From an uncultured Roseburia sp. (lineage in GTDB: Bacteria; Bacillota; Clostridia; Lachnospirales; Lachnospiraceae), in contig CANPGM010000014.1 of NCBI GenBank assembly GCA_947573605.1, forward strand, positions 1 to 64,000: a DNA stretch of 64,000 bases. Reading direction: 5' to 3'. This document shows, in pieces, positions 24,637 through 37,478 of the stretch. Position numbers and translations under genes: made by a program. The notes below the pieces were generated by a model. That model worked only from the letters and a program-made list of their open reading frames with translations, was not told where the DNA came from and ran no database searches. Within the stretch, counting starts at the first letter, position 1, and every line of letters starts with the position of its first letter.

Positions 24637-24925
24637 ATGCCTGAATTTGAATTCAGACGGAATAAATGTAAGCATCTTAAGAGATTGACGAAGGAACAAC
24701 TTGTCCAAGCAGGTCGAAACACACCGGAAGACAATTGCGCATATGGAGAAGGTGCAACATTATCCATTCATATGGTTTGCGATCGATATTGCAAGAGCAA
24801 CTGACACATTGAATACGGGAGGACTATATAAAAACGAAAATATGTTCGATTTTTACTTGCTTTTTATGCAAATGGGGAGTATAATCAGGAAAAAAGAAGC
24901 AGATGATGATTATGGAAAATTGGTT
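24637..24925 (+). pseudogene. XRE-type HTH regulator, frame-broken, upstream of R-M genes
   Basis: An ATG at 24637 after AGGGGG opens a 55-codon frame with FRRNKCKHLKRLTKEQL, which looks like the first HTH helices. The continuation HRKTIAHMEK and FAIDIARATDTL, which looks like the recognition helix and following helix of Cro/CI-type regulators, is in the +1 frame from about 24685 to 24925. Neither frame alone makes a whole domain, so one base seems lost near 24680-24690. It could be a decayed controller (C-protein-like) gene for the R-M genes that follow, a sequencing error, or a real frameshift signal. The tail overlaps the methylase start. Confidence 0.45.
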
Positions 24926-25904
24926 TAAATTTATAGATTTATTTGCCGGTATCGGCGGAATGAGAATAGCGTTTGACAGGGTGGGAGGAAACTGCGTTTA
25001 TTCCAGCGAATGGAATAAATACAGTCAAAAGACATATTTTGCCAATTTTGGCGAACAGCCGGAAGGAGACATTACTCAGGTTCATGAGACTGACATTCCA
25101 GATCATGATATACTAGTAGCAGGGTTTCCATGTCAGCCGTTTTCAATAGCTGGAGTGTCCAAGAAGAATAGTCTGGGAAGAGCCACTGGTTTTCAGGATA
25201 AAACGCAGGGAACATTGTTTTTTGATGTTTGTCGTATTATAAAGGAAAAAAGACCAAGAGCATTTATGCTGGAAAATGTAAAAAATTTATGTAGTCATGA
25301 TAAGGGTAGAACCTTTAAAATTATTCTGGAATCACTTGAAGAGCTGAATTATGAGGTATTTTACTCTGTACTGGACGGACAAAATTATGTTCCGCAGCAC
25401 AGAGAACGTATCCTGATTGTAGGGTTTGACAGGGAACGTTATGGTAAAAAAATAGAATTCCGGTTTGATTTAAGACCGGTGGTACAAAAACCAATTATGC
25501 GTGATATTCTTGAAAGTTCGGTAGAAGAGAAATATACTCTTTCTGACAGGTTGTGGCAATATCTTCAAAATTATGCAGCAAAACATAAAGCTGCCGGAAA
25601 TGGTTTTGGATATGGAATTGCACCAGTTGATGGAGTATCCAGGACGATGAGCGCACGTTATTATAAAGATGGTTCTGAAATACTGATTCTACAGGAGGGA
25701 AAAAATCCGCGCAGACTTACGCCAAGAGAATGCGCCCGGCTTCAGGGTTTTCCTGACAGTTTTCAAATACCAGTATCTGATACCCAAGCATACAGACAAT
25801 TCGGAAATTCTGTAGTAGTCCCGCTTATGGAGGAAGTTGCAGGATTGATTGTTAATAAAATGGAGGAATTGGAGTTACAGAATCAAAAAAAGAAGGTGAT
25901 TTAA
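24903..25904 (+). CDS. DNA (cytosine-5-)-methyltransferase of an EcoRII-like R-M system
   Basis: A 333-residue C5 methylase with motif [11 protein letters not shown], motif [10 protein letters not shown] with catalytic Cys77, motif VI ENVKNL, motif [15 protein letters not shown], motif [16 protein letters not shown] and motif X FGNSV. It transfers a methyl group from SAM to cytosine in its target. The company of an EcoRII-type endonuclease and Vsr suggests a Dcm/EcoRII-like target (CCWGG), which is inference. Starts at 24903, 24906 and 24912 are all possible. Lower GC than the flanks supports acquisition by transfer. Confidence 0.92.
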
Positions 25905-27083
25905 ATGTCGAAAACTTATGCTGATTTGGCGATACAAGCTGCAATTGCTGGTCAGTTATGTTATTGTAAATTCTTGTCTGCCAATGATACGGGGAAAACA
26001 GGTGGACACCAGGCAGGGATTTATATTGCTAAGCCATCCATAAAAATATTGTTTGCCGTACCGGGCAAAAAGGGCGAAAATAAGGACAAATGGGTTAAAG
26101 TTAAGTGGCAAAATGATTTTGTGACAAATACAAGGTTTATATATTATGGAAAAGGGACAAGAAATGAGTATCGTATTACTAATTTTGGAAAATCCTTTCC
26201 GTTTTTAATGCCGGAATATACAGGCGCATTATTTGTTTTAATTAAGGAAGATGAGGAGACCTACCAGGCTTTTTTTCTAAATTCAGATGAGGAGATAGAG
26301 TCATTTTTAAGCGCGTTTATGATTAGCCCGACAGAGACAAATTGTCTGATTGATAAAGAAAAGATTCTTCCTGAGAAAAGGACAGAACTGGCGATACAGG
26401 AATTCATTAATGGGTTGTCTGATGACTTTCCGACATCTGACGTAATGTCTGTAGCTGCAAGAAATATTTGTGATAAAATTTATAATCACTCAGAGTACAT
26501 CTATACGAATCCAGATAAGAAGATTATTGAATGGATAAATATGGAATACTCAATATTCAGAGCACTGGAATATACTCGTTATAGTGATTTTATTAGTAGG
26601 GGATTCTCAAATGTAGATGAATTTGTTAACGTTGCAAACAAGGTTCTAAATCGCAGGAAAAGTAGAGCAGGGAGAAGTCTGGAACATCATTTGGCTGCAA
26701 TTTTTGATGGAAATAATATTACATATTCATCACAGGCAGTAACAGAAGGAAATAAAAAACCGGATTTTTTATTCCCTTCTAAGGAAGCATATTATGATAT
26801 CCACTTTCCAACGGAAGCGCTTGTTACGCTGGCTGCAAAAACTACATGTAAGGATCGATGGAGACAGATTTTAAATGAGGCAGATCGGTTAAAAGGAGCC
26901 CCTAAATATTTATGCACACTTCAACAGGGAATATCGGGGGCACAGATGGATGAAATGATGGTGGAAAATGTAATATTGGTTGTACCTGATCCTTATATTT
27001 CATTATACCCTTCTGATAGACAGAGCAGAATTTGGTCAATTGCACGGTTTGTCAGATATATCAAAGAACTGGAAGGGAAATGA
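25905..27083 (+). CDS. EcoRII-like type IIE restriction endonuclease
   Basis: A 392-residue protein with the two EcoRII domains: an N-terminal effector-DNA-binding domain (about 20-150, with LSANDTGKTGGHQAG) and a C-terminal PD-(D/E)XK-like nuclease domain (about 215-385). The segment KPDFLF ... AAKTTCKDRW keeps Tyr296, Lys312 and Arg318 in the spacing I recall for the EcoRII active site (Tyr308, Lys324, Arg330). EcoRII cuts before CCWGG and needs a second site as activator; the same target is likely here. It directly follows the methylase gene and overlaps nothing. Length is close to EcoRII itself. Confidence 0.88.
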   Translation: MSKTYADLAIQAAIAGQLCYCKFLSANDTGKTGGHQAGIYIAKPSIKILFAVPGKKGENKDKWVKVKWQNDFVTNTRFIYYGKGTRNEYRITNFGKSFPFLMPEYTGALFVLIKEDEETYQAFFLNSDEEIESFLSAFMISPTETNCLIDKEKILPEKRTELAIQEFINGLSDDFPTSDVMSVAARNICDKIYNHSEYIYTNPDKKIIEWINMEYSIFRALEYTRYSDFISRGFSNVDEFVNVANKVLNRRKSRAGRSLEHHLAAIFDGNNITYSSQAVTEGNKKPDFLFPSKEAYYDIHFPTEALVTLAAKTTCKDRWRQILNEADRLKGAPKYLCTLQQGISGAQMDEMMVENVILVVPDPYISLYPSDRQSRIWSIARFVRYIKELEGK

Positions 27084-27084
27084 G

Positions 27085-27534
27085 ATGGATATAAAAAGCA
27101 GGGAAGAACGAAGTAAAAATATGGCGGCGATTCGTTCCAGAAATACAAAGCCAGAGATCTATTTAAGGAAGCTGCTTTTTTCACGCGGTTATCGGTATCG
27201 AGTGTGTTCTAAGTATGTATCTGGACATCCGGATTTGTATTTAAAGAAATATAATACTGCAATTTTTGTTCATGGTTGTTATTGGCATCGTCATAAAAAC
27301 TGTAAATATGCATACATGCCAAAATCAAGAGTGGAATTCTGGCAGAAGAAGTTTGAAATGAATCAGAAACGGGACTATATTGTCAGGGAAGAACTTAAGG
27401 ATAGACAAATAAAATGTCTGATTGTTTGGGAGTGTACCATAAATCAGATGGAGAGAAATTCAGATATACAATATATGTATCTAAAACGAATAGAAAACTT
27501 TTTAAAGTCAATAGATTTATATGATGAAATATAA
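27085..27534 (+). CDS. vsr: Very short patch repair endonuclease Vsr
   Basis: A 150-residue nickase that cuts at T:G mismatches made when 5-methylcytosine deaminates. Conserved residues are the catalytic Asp in GHPDLYL, the HGCYWH motif with the active-site histidines, zinc ligands in HGC/HRHKNC, and the final VWEC. The start is one base after the endonuclease stop codon, so translation is coupled; a GGAAGGG ribosome binding site lies inside the endonuclease gene. Presence of Vsr supports a C5 methylase making mutation-prone m5C. Confidence 0.92.
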   Translation: MDIKSREERSKNMAAIRSRNTKPEIYLRKLLFSRGYRYRVCSKYVSGHPDLYLKKYNTAIFVHGCYWHRHKNCKYAYMPKSRVEFWQKKFEMNQKRDYIVREELKDRQIKCLIVWECTINQMERNSDIQYMYLKRIENFLKSIDLYDEI

Positions 27535-29699: not shown

Positions 29700-30908
29700 A
29701 TGGAATTTAAGGAATATAAGTTCAAGGAGATACAAAAGAGAATCAGAATGAAATATATCCGCGAAAGTAACGTAAACTTAAATCCGTGGGAAATAACAAA
29801 TTTTGTAAGCAGGATATCTTCCTGTTTTTATAAATTGGAATTGCTGAATACGATTGCCATTGCAATAAATCAGGGAGTCGCTCTGAACAGAATATTTATT
29901 ATGGACAGGGAGTATAAACTGAATACAAGATATACCGGACTTTCGCTGATAGATTTAAATACGTACGGTATTAATAAAATATTTTCTATTGGCAAACCGA
30001 TTCCGCTGGCGCCTGACAAAAGCATTAATCAAATTCGGTTTTTGTTTGAATATTTATATAACTTAAATCGGATTTTATACAGGGAAGGAAGACGAAGATT
30101 CACAGAATGGGACCGTGCAGAGGCGTATGCTTTTTTGAGGCAAAAAGGTTTGGTTGAAGCATTGGGGGAAATCGAAAAGATTGCATTTGATAAAGTTACA
30201 TTTCATAAAGCGCCAAAAGAATTTGCAGGATTAAGAAAAGAACGGGAAAAGATTGAAAAAAAGTATCTGCATTACATAGAAGATGAGAAAAAATTTCCCG
30301 TTTTAGAAATGAAACTGTCTAATCATGAAAAAGGGTTGAAGGAAGAGGAAGAAGAGCTTGTAAGAAAATATTACAATATATTTTTCGATTATTTTACGAA
30401 ACTTCAAAGGCCGATTGTCGGAATATTTAATCCGGAGAACCAGCAGATACAGATCTTATGCGCGGATTATTTTGATGATACCATAAATTACAATACGCAT
30501 ATTGATTTAAAAAGCATTACGCACAACAGCCCGATAATGTCTGAGATTGAAGCCGGTTTTTCGATAGCGTCAATGCATAAAGCAGAGAAACGGGCAGCAG
30601 AATTACATATACTGGAAAAGAAAAAATACGAGTTGGAAATACGAAATCTGCAAATGGATTATATGTTAAAACAGCAGGAAGCAGAGAAAAACGCTCTTGA
30701 TATCTATGCGAAAAAAATTGAAATACAAAGGGAATTAAATCGTATGGCAGACAGGCAGGAGGCGGATGGCATCAGTGGATTGGACGATACTTATTCCAAC
30801 AAAAAGCTTTTACAGACGTTTGAAAAGGTTCGGAAGGGGTATTCAGAAGTATTGAGGACGAATCAATTTGTGGAACAGGACAAAAGTATACTGGATTTGA
30901 GGACTTAA
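29700..30908 (+). CDS. Unrecognised 402-residue AT-rich-gene protein with C-terminal coiled coil
   Basis: I do not recognise this protein. Residues about 25-120 look like a compact alpha/beta domain (NPWEITNFVSRISSCFY ... FIMDREYKL ... SLIDLNTYGINKIF). The middle is charged and helical. Residues about 285-355 form a likely coiled coil rich in Lys, Glu and Ala (KAEKRAAEL ... MLKQQEAEKNALDIY). No signal peptide or membrane helix is seen. An AAGGAG ribosome binding site and a good promoter show it is a real gene. GC is well below the chromosome average, as in the R-M genes, pointing to recent gain. Neighbours are defence-like, but no function can be claimed. Confidence 0.75.
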   Translation: MEFKEYKFKEIQKRIRMKYIRESNVNLNPWEITNFVSRISSCFYKLELLNTIAIAINQGVALNRIFIMDREYKLNTRYTGLSLIDLNTYGINKIFSIGKPIPLAPDKSINQIRFLFEYLYNLNRILYREGRRRFTEWDRAEAYAFLRQKGLVEALGEIEKIAFDKVTFHKAPKEFAGLRKEREKIEKKYLHYIEDEKKFPVLEMKLSNHEKGLKEEEEELVRKYYNIFFDYFTKLQRPIVGIFNPENQQIQILCADYFDDTINYNTHIDLKSITHNSPIMSEIEAGFSIASMHKAEKRAAELHILEKKKYELEIRNLQMDYMLKQQEAEKNALDIYAKKIEIQRELNRMADRQEADGISGLDDTYSNKKLLQTFEKVRKGYSEVLRTNQFVEQDKSILDLRT

Positions 30909-32203: not shown

Positions 32204-34390
32204 ATGGCGATTTACAGATGTAAGATGTGCGGCGGAGACCTTGAAGTTTTAGAAGATGTTTCCGTCGTAACCTGCGAATTTTGCGGTACCGGACAGACAA
32301 TTCCGACCGTCAGGGACGAAAACATTCAGGCGCTTTTTAACAGAGCAAATATCCTTCGTATGAAGTCCGAGTTTGACAGGGCCGCAGAGCTTTATGAGAA
32401 GATCATTCAGGCAAGCGAAAAAGAGGCGGAGGCGTATTGGGGGCTGATTCTGTGTAAATACGGAATTGAGTACGTGGAAGACCCCGCAACCTTTAAAAGG
32501 ATTCCTACCTGCCACCGTACTTCTTACGAGGCAGTCACGGCGGATGAAAACTATAAAAAGGCGATTCAATATGCGGACGTGCTGCAAAGAGCAATCTATG
32601 AGACAGAGGCAAAAGCAATCGAAGAAATTCAGAAGGGCATCCTTGCTATTTCGCAGAAGGAAGAACCGTACGATGTTTTTATCTGCTATAAGGAAACGGA
32701 TGCGGACGGCAAGCGCACGGTAGACAGCGCAATTGCGAATGAAATTTATCACGAATTGACGCAGGAGGGTTTTAAAGTATTTTATGCGGCGATTACTTTG
32801 GAGGACAGGCTTGGAACGGAATATGAGCCGTATATTTTTTCGGCGCTGAATTCGGCGAAAGTTATGATATTATTGGGAACCAGACCGGAATATTTTAATG
32901 CGGTATGGGTAAAAAACGAGTGGTCCAGATTTTTAAAAATCATGGAAAAAGACCGTTCCAGACTATTGGTTCCGTGCTACCGCGATATGGACGCCTATGA
33001 GCTTCCCGAAGAATTTGCCCATCTGCAGGCGCAGGATATGTCCAAAATCGGTTTTATCAATGACGTCATCCGCGGCATAAAAAAGGTAATTGCAAAAGAA
33101 GAAACGGAACCCGCAGAGGAAACGGCTGCCGCGCAGCCGGTTTTTGGCAATTCGTCTATGAGGGCGCTGTTAGACCGCGGGTATATGGCGCTGGAGGACG
33201 GAGAGTGGGAAAATGCAAACGAGTATTTTGACCAGGTTTTGAACATGGATGCAAAATGCGGCGATGCGTATCTGGGAAGAGTGCTTGCAGAGAGCAAAGT
33301 TTCTAATTTGGACAGTTTTTCCCAATCCCGTTTAAGACAGTATGAGACGGTAAAGAAAGAGCGTTGCGAAGCATGTGATAGAAGATTAGAAGAAATAAAA
33401 AGTTTAATTAGTGATTGTGTGGTAGAAGGTTATTTAGAATTCAAGGACTTTGAAGGTTTTTTTGATTTTGATTTACATTTCGATTCAAAACTTGTAAATT
33501 TGCAAAACGCTTATGAGAAGGATATGGATTATTTGACTCAGAATAAGCTGATAAATAGAACGTTGCAGTTTTTAGAGGGAAAGAAAAAGGAACTGTTTTC
33601 ATTAGAACTGGAAAAAGCAAAAAGCGGAGCGCTTCAGCGGTTGGAAGAGGCGAAACAGGAGCATGAAAAAAATGTGTCTTCTATTACGGAAGCATATAAG
33701 AACTTTTTTGAAGAAAAAGCGGCACAGGCACGGGCGATGTCATGGGAGGCGAAAGAAAGGAAAAGACTGCGTTACGAGGAAGTCTGCAAGGAACAGGCTT
33801 CGGCATCATTTGATTCTCAGTATGAACTTATTGCAAAAAAGTTTGAGGAATTTGGAAATTATCAGGCTGCAGAAAAACGGGCGGCGGAATGCAGAAAGGC
33901 GGCGGAGGACTTTCGTATCGCGTCCAATCAGGCAATTATAAAAAATAAACAACGTAAGCTGAAGATTGCGATAGCAGTAATCATTGCGATAGTTGCCGTA
34001 TGGAAGATTATTCCGGCTATTGCTAATAAAATATTTCTTTCTTTTGTGCAGAAGAAATTAATAGGTGAGAAGTTTACAGGGGAGTGTATTTATGAAATTG
34101 GCGTTGAGAGAAGAGAAAGGAAGTTCGAAGTAGTAATACTGGACGAACGATATTGCAACGTTGAAGAGATAGTTTACATTGATGAATTATCAGGCAGATC
34201 TCAGACGGTTTATTCAGACGATTATATCCCCTATACATTAACAGGAGGAGTATTTGGGATAAAATTTAACTGGGATTCCGATGTAATCGAAGGAAGTGAC
34301 AGAGACTTTTTTGTTATAATTGATGGTGATGATATAAAATTAGAAACAGAAGATTATACATTGAATGCGGAGCTTATATTAAGCAATTGA
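32204..34390 (+). CDS. Zinc-ribbon/TIR/TPR-like protein with coiled coil and membrane anchor
   Basis: A 728-residue modular protein. Zinc ribbon with Cys6, Cys9, Cys24 and Cys27; TPR-like helices (about 40-150); TIR domain (about 155-295) starting YDVFICYKE, with LEDRLGTEYE and a W-x3-E motif (Trp235, Glu239), Glu239 being the candidate catalytic glutamate of NAD-cleaving TIRs; more TPR-like helices (about 325-360); a long coiled coil (about 465-580); one membrane helix (about 588-607); and an unrecognised beta-rich C-terminal domain (about 620-728). The TIR would be cytoplasmic. DNA of the first 1.1 kb has chromosome-like GC, while much of the rest is AT-rich, suggesting a swapped 3' end. 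A helicase-nuclease gene follows after 52 bp. NADase activity is inferred, not shown. Confidence 0.82.
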   Translation: MAIYRCKMCGGDLEVLEDVSVVTCEFCGTGQTIPTVRDENIQALFNRANILRMKSEFDRAAELYEKIIQASEKEAEAYWGLILCKYGIEYVEDPATFKRIPTCHRTSYEAVTADENYKKAIQYADVLQRAIYETEAKAIEEIQKGILAISQKEEPYDVFICYKETDADGKRTVDSAIANEIYHELTQEGFKVFYAAITLEDRLGTEYEPYIFSALNSAKVMILLGTRPEYFNAVWVKNEWSRFLKIMEKDRSRLLVPCYRDMDAYELPEEFAHLQAQDMSKIGFINDVIRGIKKVIAKEETEPAEETAAAQPVFGNSSMRALLDRGYMALEDGEWENANEYFDQVLNMDAKCGDAYLGRVLAESKVSNLDSFSQSRLRQYETVKKERCEACDRRLEEIKSLISDCVVEGYLEFKDFEGFFDFDLHFDSKLVNLQNAYEKDMDYLTQNKLINRTLQFLEGKKKELFSLELEKAKSGALQRLEEAKQEHEKNVSSITEAYKNFFEEKAAQARAMSWEAKERKRLRYEEVCKEQASASFDSQYELIAKKFEEFGNYQAAEKRAAECRKAAEDFRIASNQAIIKNKQRKLKIAIAVIIAIVAVWKIIPAIANKIFLSFVQKKLIGEKFTGECIYEIGVERRERKFEVVILDERYCNVEEIVYIDELSGRSQTVYSDDYIPYTLTGGVFGIKFNWDSDVIEGSDRDFFVIIDGDDIKLETEDYTLNAELILSN

Positions 34391-34442
34391 CTTATTGCTA
34401 ATATATAATTTTATCATTATACACCCGTCAGGAGCCGCAATT

Positions 34443-37400
34443 ATGAACACGATCAACCGCGATATTTTTAAAGCCATCCATGAGGGGAAATGGCTGAAAA
34501 TTGAATACAGAAACAGGTCGGGAGAGGTCACGAAATACTGGATTGGAATCCGTGACATGAATCTTAAGAAACGCGCGCTAAAAGTGGACGGGCTTCATTT
34601 AAGCAAATATACGGTCGCACAGTATGATACCGTCTATATAGATTCTATTTTATCCACGCAGATCATCGAAGGGTCATACTGTCCGGTCAACGAAGAACTG
34701 GTGCGCGACATTTCCGAAAACCCGCATAAGTATAAGCTGTTGTTTGAGAATACGGCTAATCTGAAAATTTTGAACTATCTGGAAATGTGTAACCGTCTCG
34801 ACGCCGTTCCCTATTGTTCGGACTTTCGACTGGTTCGGTTTATCGACCGGGACAGTTTTTCGGAAGGGTGTTATCCGTTAAGCGAGGAACAGTTTCGGGA
34901 GATTGTAAAGCAGTTTCAATACAAAGCGGACCGGGACGCCGTTTCGGAAGGAAAGCTTTTAATACGGCAGCTTGCCATGAATGTTTTAAGCATTCATACG
35001 GACAGGGGGCTTTACGTGCTGGCGTATCGAAGGCTTCATTTGGACGTAAAAAAAAGAGTGCTGCGTCCGGAAGAGGACATTACGATTTGTACGGAATTTA
35101 CGATAGACGGGAAAACAGAAAGCATTCGCTATTATTTGGACGCGGAAGAATATGAGCTGTTACATGATTTTGAACGGCATCAGGAAAAAATCAAAGACTG
35201 TGTGGCGAAGCGCGCAAACCGGGCGGTCTGCGTGGACGATATGCCGTATGTCATCGGAATCGGCATGGATGTCATACTGGATCTGCATAAAGAATACAAT
35301 GCAATTTTAACGATGTATCAGGAAAACACAGTCACTTTTCCGATTCGGGCGTTTTTCGGGGACTTGCTGGAGCGGCCGCGCCGGAGAAAAGCGTACCCGA
35401 TTGCTTTTTTGAATCAGGAAATGAATCTGGATCAGCTTTTGGCGATTCACAACGCTATGAAATATCCGGTCGCCTATATTCAGGGACCGCCCGGAACCGG
35501 AAAGACAAATACGATTATTAATACGATTATTACGGCATTTTTTAATGAAAGAACCGTGTTGTTTGCTTCGTACAACAATGTGCCGATTGACGGTGTGTTT
35601 GAAAAACTGGCGTCGCTGACTTATCACGGAGAAAAGATTCCGTTCCCGGTTTTGCGTCTGGGGAACGGACAGAAGATAAAAGAGGCGATTTCCTATATCA
35701 AAGAGCTGTATGAGCGCACGGAAGGAATCCGGGTATTTGAAGCAACGCTGGACAGACGGAAGGACGACCGCGTCCGCAGGGCGAGAAAGCTTTCCGATCT
35801 ATTAAAAAAATATGAGGAAAGACTGGATCTTACCGAACGCAGCGAAACGTTAAAGCGTTTACTGGAGTATCAGCAGCAGGCGGGAAACAAAATAAAGCTC
35901 CTGCCGTTTCAGGCGGATTTGCAGGGGCGGCAGTTAGAACAGGTCAACCGTAAAATCAAAGAAATGGGCGATGTTACGGATGGAGACGCAAGAGCTCTGC
36001 TGGATCATAATGAGGAGGAGTTTTATCAGTTTCTGTTTTACAGCTCGGCGGGCTATATCAAGCGATTAGGCAGCGGCAGATATGCCGACTTTATGGAAAT
36101 TTTATATGATACGGACGAGAAAAAACAGATGGAAGCGTTTCATAAATATTTCAGCAAAACGGAAAACGTCAGAAAAATGCAGAAGGTTTTTCCGATTATG
36201 ATTACTACCTGCATATCGGCGCACAAAATCGGAGAACCGAAACCGATGTTTGATATGACAATTTTAGATGAAGCAAGCCAATGCAATACGGCCGTTTCGC
36301 TCGTCCCGATTATCCGGGGCGATAATTTGATGCTTGTGGGCGACCCCCAGCAGTTAAACCCGGTAATTCTTTTGGACGAGCTGACAAACCGAAAACTCCG
36401 CAGAAAATATCGGGTGGCGGAGGAATATGACTACCGAACGAACTCCGTCTATAAAACATATCTTGCATGCGACGCCGTAAGCGACGAGGTGCTGCTGCGG
36501 AATCATTACCGCTGTCATGAAAAAATCATTGAATTTAACAACAAAAAGTACTATAATTCGAAGCTGAATATCTGTTCCTCGCGCAATGAGAGCAGGCCGC
36601 TTTTCTATTTTGACGTTCAGGGAGAATGCGGCGATGCAAAGAATACGGCTCCGGCGGAGGTTCGCGAAATTATACGGATTGCGGGAGAAAACCGCGAGAA
36701 AAGTATCGGCGTCATTACGCCGTTTGTGAATCAGAGAAAGCTGATTGAGGCGGCGCTGGAAAAAGAAAATCTTGGGAATGTCGTCTGCGGGACGGTACAT
36801 GCGTTTCAGGGCGACGAAAAAGACATGGTGCTTTTTTCAACGGCAGTCACAGAACACACGCATGCGGGAACATACGAATGGCTCAAAAACAATAAAGAAT
36901 TAATCAATGTCGCGACTTCGCGTGCAAGAGACAGACTGATTGTACTTTCTAATTCTCAGAACTTAGAGCGTTTGCATAAAAGCGGCGAAGAGGACGATTT
37001 TTATGAACTGGTAGAATATGTCAGAAATAACGGGGAATCGGAAGTGTCGTCAAAGCAGGTTAATTCCAGAGCGCTTGGCATTAAGCCGTTTCGAGCGGAA
37101 ACGGAGGAAGCGTTTTTGAAGAATCTAAATCATGCGCTGGAAAATATCTGGCTTTCGGAAAGCAGTTTCACAATTGAGAGACAGGTAGCCGTTTCCGATA
37201 TTTTTAGAGAAAAATCCGGCGGAGAAGATTTGTTTTACAGGGATTGTTTTGATTTTGTCGTATATGAGAAGCAGCCTGGGCGCGAAGTTCCGATACTGGC
37301 GATTGAGCTGGACGGGAAAGAGCATTTTGAGGATGAGATTGTGCAAGTTCGCGACGAACGGAAAAGAGAACTTTGCAGGGAGCAGGATTTACAGATGATT

Positions 37401-37478
37401 CGGGTGGAAAATTCTTATGCAAGACGTTATCATCACATGAAAGAGATTTTGCTGGATTATTTCTCGAAAAGACATTAA
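34443..37478 (+). CDS. SF1 (UPF1/DNA2-like) helicase with C-terminal VSR/DUF2726-like nuclease domain
   Basis: About 1011 residues. The N-terminus (about 1-70, AIHEGKWLKIEYRNRSGE) resembles the Sm-like barrel of WYL domains, usually a ligand or nucleic-acid sensor; this is tentative. The SF1 helicase core has Walker A GPPGTGKTN (about 348), Walker B ILDEASQ (about 606), motif III VGDPQQLNP (about 630), motif V VHAFQGDEKD (about 784) and motif VI TSRARDRLIVLS (about 825). The C-terminus (about 895-1011) has FDFVV ... LAIELDGKEH ... RDERK, the acidic/Lys pattern of VSR/DUF559/DUF2726 nucleases. ATG 34443 follows CAGGAG; the longer frame has no signal. It should unwind and cut nucleic acid. The pairing with the TIR gene suggests defence. 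Confidence 0.85.
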   Translation: MNTINRDIFKAIHEGKWLKIEYRNRSGEVTKYWIGIRDMNLKKRALKVDGLHLSKYTVAQYDTVYIDSILSTQIIEGSYCPVNEELVRDISENPHKYKLLFENTANLKILNYLEMCNRLDAVPYCSDFRLVRFIDRDSFSEGCYPLSEEQFREIVKQFQYKADRDAVSEGKLLIRQLAMNVLSIHTDRGLYVLAYRRLHLDVKKRVLRPEEDITICTEFTIDGKTESIRYYLDAEEYELLHDFERHQEKIKDCVAKRANRAVCVDDMPYVIGIGMDVILDLHKEYNAILTMYQENTVTFPIRAFFGDLLERPRRRKAYPIAFLNQEMNLDQLLAIHNAMKYPVAYIQGPPGTGKTNTIINTIITAFFNERTVLFASYNNVPIDGVFEKLASLTYHGEKIPFPVLRLGNGQKIKEAISYIKELYERTEGIRVFEATLDRRKDDRVRRARKLSDLLKKYEERLDLTERSETLKRLLEYQQQAGNKIKLLPFQADLQGRQLEQVNRKIKEMGDVTDGDARALLDHNEEEFYQFLFYSSAGYIKRLGSGRYADFMEILYDTDEKKQMEAFHKYFSKTENVRKMQKVFPIMITTCISAHKIGEPKPMFDMTILDEASQCNTAVSLVPIIRGDNLMLVGDPQQLNPVILLDELTNRKLRRKYRVAEEYDYRTNSVYKTYLACDAVSDEVLLRNHYRCHEKIIEFNNKKYYNSKLNICSSRNESRPLFYFDVQGECGDAKNTAPAEVREIIRIAGENREKSIGVITPFVNQRKLIEAALEKENLGNVVCGTVHAFQGDEKDMVLFSTAVTEHTHAGTYEWLKNNKELINVATSRARDRLIVLSNSQNLERLHKSGEEDDFYELVEYVRNNGESEVSSKQVNSRALGIKPFRAETEEAFLKNLNHALENIWLSESSFTIERQVAVSDIFREKSGGEDLFYRDCFDFVVYEKQPGREVPILAIELDGKEHFEDEIVQVRDERKRELCREQDLQMIRVENSYARRYHHMKEILLDYFSKRH

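Follow-up and report, generated by a model that had tools for sequence, protein, structure and literature searches.

A TIR-domain gene beside a helicase-nuclease gene in Roseburia: a candidate orphan copy from a modular, SPFH-linked family

What might explain why, in an uncultured Roseburia sp., a gene for a TIR-domain protein with a membrane helix lies 52 bp upstream of a gene for a helicase with a nuclease-type C-terminus? The two genes occupy positions 32,204 to 37,478 of the stretch of DNA analyzed here (the window: 64,000 nucleotides, positions 1 to 64,000 of contig CANPGM010000014.1, assembly GCA_947573605.1). Bacterial immune systems are known to use TIR effectors, and the original prediction for this locus viewed the pair as one candidate defence system, in which the helicase may sense or process invading DNA and trigger the TIR protein. 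Comparison with relatives gives a different picture: the TIR-helicase link recurs yet is optional and is not a fixed partnership, and most TIR loci examined encode an SPFH protein and a small membrane protein. The window TIR gene could be viewed as an orphan copy from a modular family of TIR sensor-effectors that work on an SPFH platform, with the helicase a separate and optional gene; we give this reading an even chance of being right.

The TIR protein and its SPFH and membrane-protein partners

The features of the TIR gene are as follows.

32204-34390, plus strand: TIR gene, 728 amino acids (aa); zinc ribbon, TPR-like stretch, TIR domain, second TPR-like stretch, variable middle, one transmembrane (TM) helix and C-terminal domain
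32219-32284, plus strand: zinc ribbon CxxC...CxxC, Cys6/9/24/27; Cys6/9 in 122/124 and Cys24/27 in 124/124 aligned members
32675-33043, plus strand: TIR domain, residues 158-280; Pfam TIR_2 (PF13676), E 5e-12, above cut-off
32918-32920, plus strand: codon of Glu239 within AVWVKNEW, predicted catalytic residue; E in 124/124
33965-34021, plus strand: predicted TM helix, residues 588-606; hydropathy 2.69; K/R five before, three after
34022-34387, plus strand: C-terminal domain, 122 aa, unclassified

The TIR protein with zinc ribbon and membrane helix is thus present as predicted, and the position assigned to Glu239 was correct. The protein carries the traits that define its family, an N-terminal CxxC...CxxC zinc ribbon, a TPR-like stretch, and a TIR domain with Trp235 and Glu239, both of which are present in all 124 aligned members; its Pfam matches to TPR and zinc-ribbon models are sub-threshold. 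The motif AVWVKNEW was among the search seeds, and for that reason the conservation of Glu239 was re-examined in members lacking the exact seed, 15 of 15 of which still carry the glutamate. Its catalytic role is presumably that of the equivalent residue in known TIR NADases. The variable C-terminal end that characterizes the family is also present, although no relative of the window end was present among the sequences compared: Pfam (E up to 0.5) gave nothing for it, and neither did phmmer (E up to 1) against 1388 open reading frames (ORFs) of the fetched loci. A profile search of the PDB with the family alignment returned 26 chains. Most were TPR, WD-40 or designed repeat proteins, and TIR chains were absent. 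At TIR residue 202 (32807-32809) the window protein has Arg, where 120 of the 124 members have Lys.

The 79 TIR loci compared represent the best 80 of 568 confirmed relatives and therefore favor close relatives. An SPFH protein (Band_7_1, PF13421, with zinc ribbons) is encoded in 56 of them, and in every case its ORF shares the strand of the TIR gene. Of the 28 loci that span 20 kb or more, 24 have it. A membrane protein of ~230 aa is found in 52 of the 79, three or four helices being predicted in 53 of its 55 matches, and the gap between the SPFH and membrane-protein genes has a median of 3 bp (54 pairs). The association extends to whole genomes. Among 295 genomes of the order, which like the other genome sets compared are partly incomplete, 31 have a TIR core at E 0.001; the 25 with E <=1e-50 were counted as TIR genomes and the other six treated as negative. 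The membrane protein is present in 21 of the 25 TIR genomes and in 7 of the 270 others (p=2e-22), and among the matches listed an SPFH gene lies within ~5 kb of the TIR gene in at least 17 of the 25. The window genome itself has a complete SPFH-membrane-TIR triad on another contig, C27, and the TIR gene of the window is therefore an orphan or satellite copy. SPFH-membrane pairs adjoin a zinc-ribbon-like protein without TIR match in two loci (L135:8221-9021 and L136:6933-7715), and elsewhere they stand alone; because of this, the sequences suggest that the TIR protein docks through its zinc-ribbon/TPR front.

The nearest layout that we found in the literature is ydjGHI with PspA in B. subtilis, which makes a role in envelope stress the main rival explanation. 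As described in the portions of the sources drawn on here (PMC11237479, PMC8581546), YdjG-YdjH-YdjI comprise similar parts: a band-7/SPFH protein with a zinc ribbon, a membrane partner, and a zinc-ribbon protein with a TM helix and a further domain; no TIR domain is described in those portions. According to this explanation, which we regard as possible though on the unlikely side, SPFH-TM-TIR would be the TIR-bearing counterpart of ydjGHI and not an anti-phage module; the C-terminal domain would sense membrane or cell-wall damage, and TIR chemistry or scaffolding would tune metabolism. The pairs in L135 and L136, beside zinc-ribbon proteins without a TIR match, speak in its favor. Unlike the ydj operon, the TIR family has repeated copies with differing ends, and no PspA-like group was recognized by eye among 10 neighbor clusters, no dedicated PspA search having been made; the AbiH-like neighbors, tandem copies and divergence between fronts and ends described below resemble conflict systems. 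In the open-access PMC literature no paper was found that ties SPFH, band 7 or flotillin to a bacterial TIR-domain protein, which does not establish absence in print; the 'Tir' beside band-7 in the relevant part of PMC11237479 is the CesT/Tir chaperone.

Conserved fronts, variable ends

How uniform is the family beyond its zinc ribbon and TIR domain? From 131 TIR ORFs, 13 that were weak or ran off a sequence end and one without the zinc-ribbon motif were removed, leaving 117 members. In an alignment of the 116 members of length >=300, conservation is largely confined to columns 1-300. The 104 ends of at least 90 aa, of which the 26 TM-less ones were cut at residue 480, were found to match DUF6273 (42), RCC1_2 (23), LRR_5 (five), Lipocalin_3 (four) and SH3_3 (two). 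For phage proteins, models of DUF6273 reportedly adopt a C-type-lectin fold (PMC10743442, in the part concerned). More than one TIR gene is present in 32 of the 79 loci, and in five of 51 same-locus pairs (L031, L032, L046, L077, L099) the fronts are 93-98% identical and the last 250 aa only 20-32%. Of eight pairs profiled, seven showed a drop in identity somewhere between residues 300 and 450; in the remaining one, from L077, the drop came only past the TM helix. Two further kinds of end were observed: the 1913-aa TIR protein of L079:2683-8424 has one TM helix followed by a long BspA-like leucine-rich repeat (LRR) array, and TIR-family members in L041 and L043 have C-terminal ends in which a 4Fe-4S ferredoxin-like motif was recognized by eye.

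The TM-bearing members (n=77) have an excess of K/R before the helix in 71 cases, and fewer before it in five. The basic residues lie on the TIR side, and the TIR domain is therefore predicted to be inside and the C-terminal end outside. Together with the partners, this arrangement would fit a mechanism in which the zinc-ribbon/TPR front docks onto the SPFH platform at the membrane, and the C-terminal module, which would be outside in TM-bearing and cytosolic in TM-less members, detects a cue that comes from phage or from the envelope. NAD+ cleavage would be switched on once TIR domains cluster on the platform, and this would halt growth or kill the infected cell. A broader version of this idea is that gut Clostridia possess a repertoire resembling pattern-recognition receptors: a constant cytoplasmic TIR chassis on the SPFH platform, with recognition ends (C-type-lectin-like, LRR, RCC1, SH3, lipocalin-like) that are swapped by recombination between tandem copies, and with surface recognition leading to NAD+ loss. 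The window protein might then be a satellite receptor with an optional helicase-nuclease arm. We offer this broader version tentatively, and doubt is in order.

The same ends admit another interpretation, that the TIR domain serves in assembly and has no catalytic activity, and that the proteins sense gut-community or host molecules, not phage. DUF6273 (C-type-lectin-like per the part of PMC10743442 cited above), LRR and RCC1 can bind many ligands, and many of the 79 loci come from animal gut or rumen samples. The invariant Trp235 and Glu239 point instead to a retained active site, and we consider a non-catalytic role quite improbable.

The helicase as an optional neighbor

If the SPFH and membrane proteins are the usual neighbors of the TIR family, what is the standing of the helicase? 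The features of its gene and of the intervening gap are listed here.

34391-34442, plus strand: gap from TIR stop to helicase ATG, 52 bp; no terminator-like site listed
34443-37478, plus strand: UPF1-like superfamily 1 (SF1) helicase with DUF2726 C-terminus, 1011 aa
35481-35507, plus strand: Walker A motif QGPPGTGKT, residues 347-355; invariant in 11 aligned orthologues
37095-37445, plus strand: DUF2726 domain; PF10881, E 2e-7

The helicase ORF opens with TTG at 34395, and the likelier start is ATG 34443, which has AGGAG ahead of it; with that start the predicted gap of 52 bp is reproduced. AAA_11, AAA_12 and the C-terminal DUF2726 are all above cut-off, in agreement with the SF1 helicase with VSR/DUF2726-like C-terminus that had been proposed, and the combination of helicase motifs with a nuclease-type C-terminal domain, whose nuclease function is predicted, is that of a UPF1-like SF1 helicase. 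We take DUF2726 to be a Vsr/PD-(D/E)XK-like nuclease. The WYL-like N-terminus that had also been proposed was not confirmed: this part had no Pfam match, and profile searching of the PDB, with E allowed up to 10, gave no WYL chains. The top-scoring solved sequences are DNA2, SMUBP2, UPF1/NAM7 and SEN1, and DNA2 likewise has helicase plus nuclease in one protein. The AAA_11/AAA_12 core is shared with Mokosh MkoA/MkoC and other SF1 defence helicases (MkoC E 1e-49, residues 463-917 of the 1027-aa ORF). Unlike Mokosh, the window helicase has a DUF2726 end and gives partial matches, and no second Mokosh-type gene was recognized beside it. Promoter-like matches number 24 in the whole region, versus a shuffle mean of 11.2, and two of them (34238 and 34311) fall within the end of the TIR gene, upstream of the helicase.

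If the pair formed a functional unit, with a helicase-nuclease that detects or processes phage DNA and then triggers the membrane TIR protein, the two genes might be expected to travel together. Of the 295 genomes, 25 have the TIR core and five the helicase (E <=1e-60), and the window genome alone has both (one of 25 TIR genomes, one of five helicase genomes; Fisher p=0.36). The helicase was seen in none of the 79 other TIR loci, for which DNA of up to 10 kb per side, often less, was available. Among 40 relatives, 24 of them congeneric and the source genome included, full-length helicase orthologues with 55-73% identity are present in six congeners and a fragment in G020; no TIR relative was found in the six congeners or in G020. 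The TIR core is present in 4 of 62 genomes of the genus. No helicase was found in the 19 kb examined at the TIR locus of G648, and G012 has no helicase matches.

One further genome, G633, repeats the association. In its locus (L142:2093-11865) genes for SPFH, a membrane protein, TIR (with an RCC1 end), GNAT, a beta-lactamase-fold protein and the helicase follow one another on one strand, the helicase being the third gene downstream of the TIR gene. In each of the two genomes seen with both genes, the window genome and G633, the TIR and helicase genes lie within ~2 kb of each other. Under random placement (10 kb in 3.7 Mb), such proximity in G633 would arise by chance in ~0.3% of cases, and this supports a functional unit, as do the co-directional 52-bp gap in which no terminator-like site is listed and the grouping of the window and G633 helicases, which are 71% identical, with those of L108 and L111 (FastTree; support values not displayed). 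Against it stand the 79 TIR loci, the minimal overlap between TIR and helicase genomes and the helicase-bearing congeners that have no TIR, and also the distance between the TIR fronts of the two genomes, that of G633 ranking 83rd of 123 from the window's by tree distance (FastTree), each front having a near relative in a single array, L039.

A TIR-helicase functional unit is, in our estimate, unlikely. Because G633 repeats the association while other TIR or helicase genomes do not, the link is judged recurrent but optional. An obligate TIR-helicase system is rejected on the 79 loci, the single genome of 25 and the congeners with the helicase but no TIR, a verdict softened by G633. Beyond this one case the adjacency is not conserved in the relatives compared, and no specific support was found for triggering of the TIR protein by the helicase. 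The helicase-nuclease would be a separate DNA2/UPF1-like gene of some defence islands that at times rides with a TIR locus and is not a required trigger.

Defence context, the rest of the window, and meaning

In a phylum-wide sample of 299 genomes the TIR core (E <=1e-40) occurs in two, the window genome and G051 of the same family, and TIR-family records also include metagenome-assembled genomes of Erysipelotrichaceae and Chloroflexi. The idea of a phage- or plasmid-borne family was set aside, since tblastn with the TIR core (E 1e-5) gave no matches in 50,697 phage and 72,556 plasmid records. IMG/VR supplied one locus for the TIR protein and one for the helicase, and the family is apparently mostly chromosomal. 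On the IMG/VR contig L131, genes for GH25, a resolvase, SPFH, a membrane protein and TIR run in one direction, possibly a prophage-borne copy.

Is the family involved in defence? AbiH-like genes directly adjoin TIR in seven loci (L031, L040, L050, L073, L077, L080, L097), and overlap the SPFH start in L050 and L080; the one AbiH-like protein scanned scored 36 bits for PF14253 and 26 for SIR2_2. Of 116 genomes of the order, 12 contain PF14253, and none of 14 controls does. DUF2971 genes lie directly beside SPFH, membrane-protein or TIR genes in six loci, and DUF4760 genes beside TIR in four; the loci searched yielded no further hits for any of the three kinds of gene. Two TIR members scanned with PADLOC gave weak matches only. 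The neighbors submitted to Pfam and PADLOC were picked by eye, and among those chosen for the helicase, matches to defence models include AbiD (two), a CBASS cyclase with TmtA (L119), IetS with a type I methyltransferase (L118) and Vsr (L112); other helicase neighbors are amylase, SNF2, esterase and peptidase genes. These neighbors give indirect support to the candidate defence role first proposed for the pair. They are consistent with two separate defence-type genes, one from the SPFH-platform family, and that family is probably defensive.

No PADLOC or NCBIfam model fits well, and the view that the locus is neither Thoeris nor CBASS holds. The window TIR protein weakly resembles Thoeris ThsB (E 3e-4) and ThcB4 (27.5 bits; model cut-off 220), but it has no adjacent ThsA (SIR2-SLOG) or equivalent effector, and its architecture and neighbors differ. 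No CD-NTase was found among the neighboring window ORFs given to Pfam and PADLOC. To our knowledge SpbK of B. subtilis, another TIR protein, has no SPFH partner. It is described, in the part of the source relied on, as a TIR NADase that acts in abortive infection and interacts with a phage protein (PMC12847820), and the likeness is one of description only.

The immediate neighbors of the window TIR gene are an esterase gene and the helicase gene. Further upstream lies a set of genes outside the proposed system.

24903-27534, plus strand: Dcm-type methylase, type II restriction endonuclease and Vsr-like genes, ~5-7 kb upstream of the TIR gene

The restriction-modification set expected near the pair is accordingly there, whereas a phage relic could not be confirmed: PHROGs searches on 10 chosen ORFs gave no clear case. 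In helicase locus L112 a Vsr gene adjoins the helicase, which may be compared with the upstream Vsr-like gene of the window. A 402-aa ORF at 29700-30908 (G+C 35%) had no significant matches in Pfam, NCBIfam, PADLOC or PHROGs. Five genomes have a relative (69-74%) of the MATE gene that flanks the locus, but these relatives are situated elsewhere, near homologues of window 53158-55724 in L126, L127 and L128. No clean insertion site was identifiable in an empty-site comparison through these five genomes; with the MATE relatives located elsewhere, the region has been rearranged and no insertion site can be named.

Several observations weigh against viewing the window TIR gene as an orphan from an SPFH-platform family of sensor-effectors. 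Neither an SPFH gene nor a membrane-protein partner adjoins the window copy. Among the matches listed, SPFH is not near TIR in 6 of the 25 TIR genomes (G252 is in neither group), and G125 has a TIR gene and no PF13421 match genome-wide. PF13421 is common in itself (194 of 295 genomes; 4 of 14 controls), and therefore only its adjacency to TIR is informative. The contig stretch of the SPFH-membrane pair is without TIR in G159, G232 and G304, and the pair is also found in the TIR-less loci L133-L137. Five other same-locus pairs have ends that are 52-63% identical, as similar as many fronts, and the helicase near TIR in G633 argues for some helicase link. By a hydropathy cut-off, 33 of the 117 members have no TM helix (four are shorter than 340 aa), the C27 member of the window genome among them, and some of these bear RCC1- or LRR-like ends by motif; sensing outside the cell therefore cannot be general. 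We know of no activity or phage phenotype of any family member. The SPFH protein YdjI of B. subtilis acts in envelope stress, according to the portion of PMC8581546 consulted.

The family is reminiscent of animal Toll-like receptors, which, as outlined in the part of PMC7075850 used here, have a single TM helix that separates TIR from LRRs, as do some family members. Unlike in Toll-like receptors, in this family the TIR domain is N-terminal and the sensor C-terminal, and most ends are not LRRs. A Toll-like topology for every member is ruled out by those without a TM helix, and there is no evidence for common descent of the two architectures. If our preferred reading is true, a TIR front that stays the same, joined to interchangeable recognition-like ends and tied to an SPFH scaffold, would represent a different wiring of TIR effectors, in a layout close to that of animal membrane TIR receptors, and the SPFH protein, in place of the helicase, would become the partner of interest for TIR.

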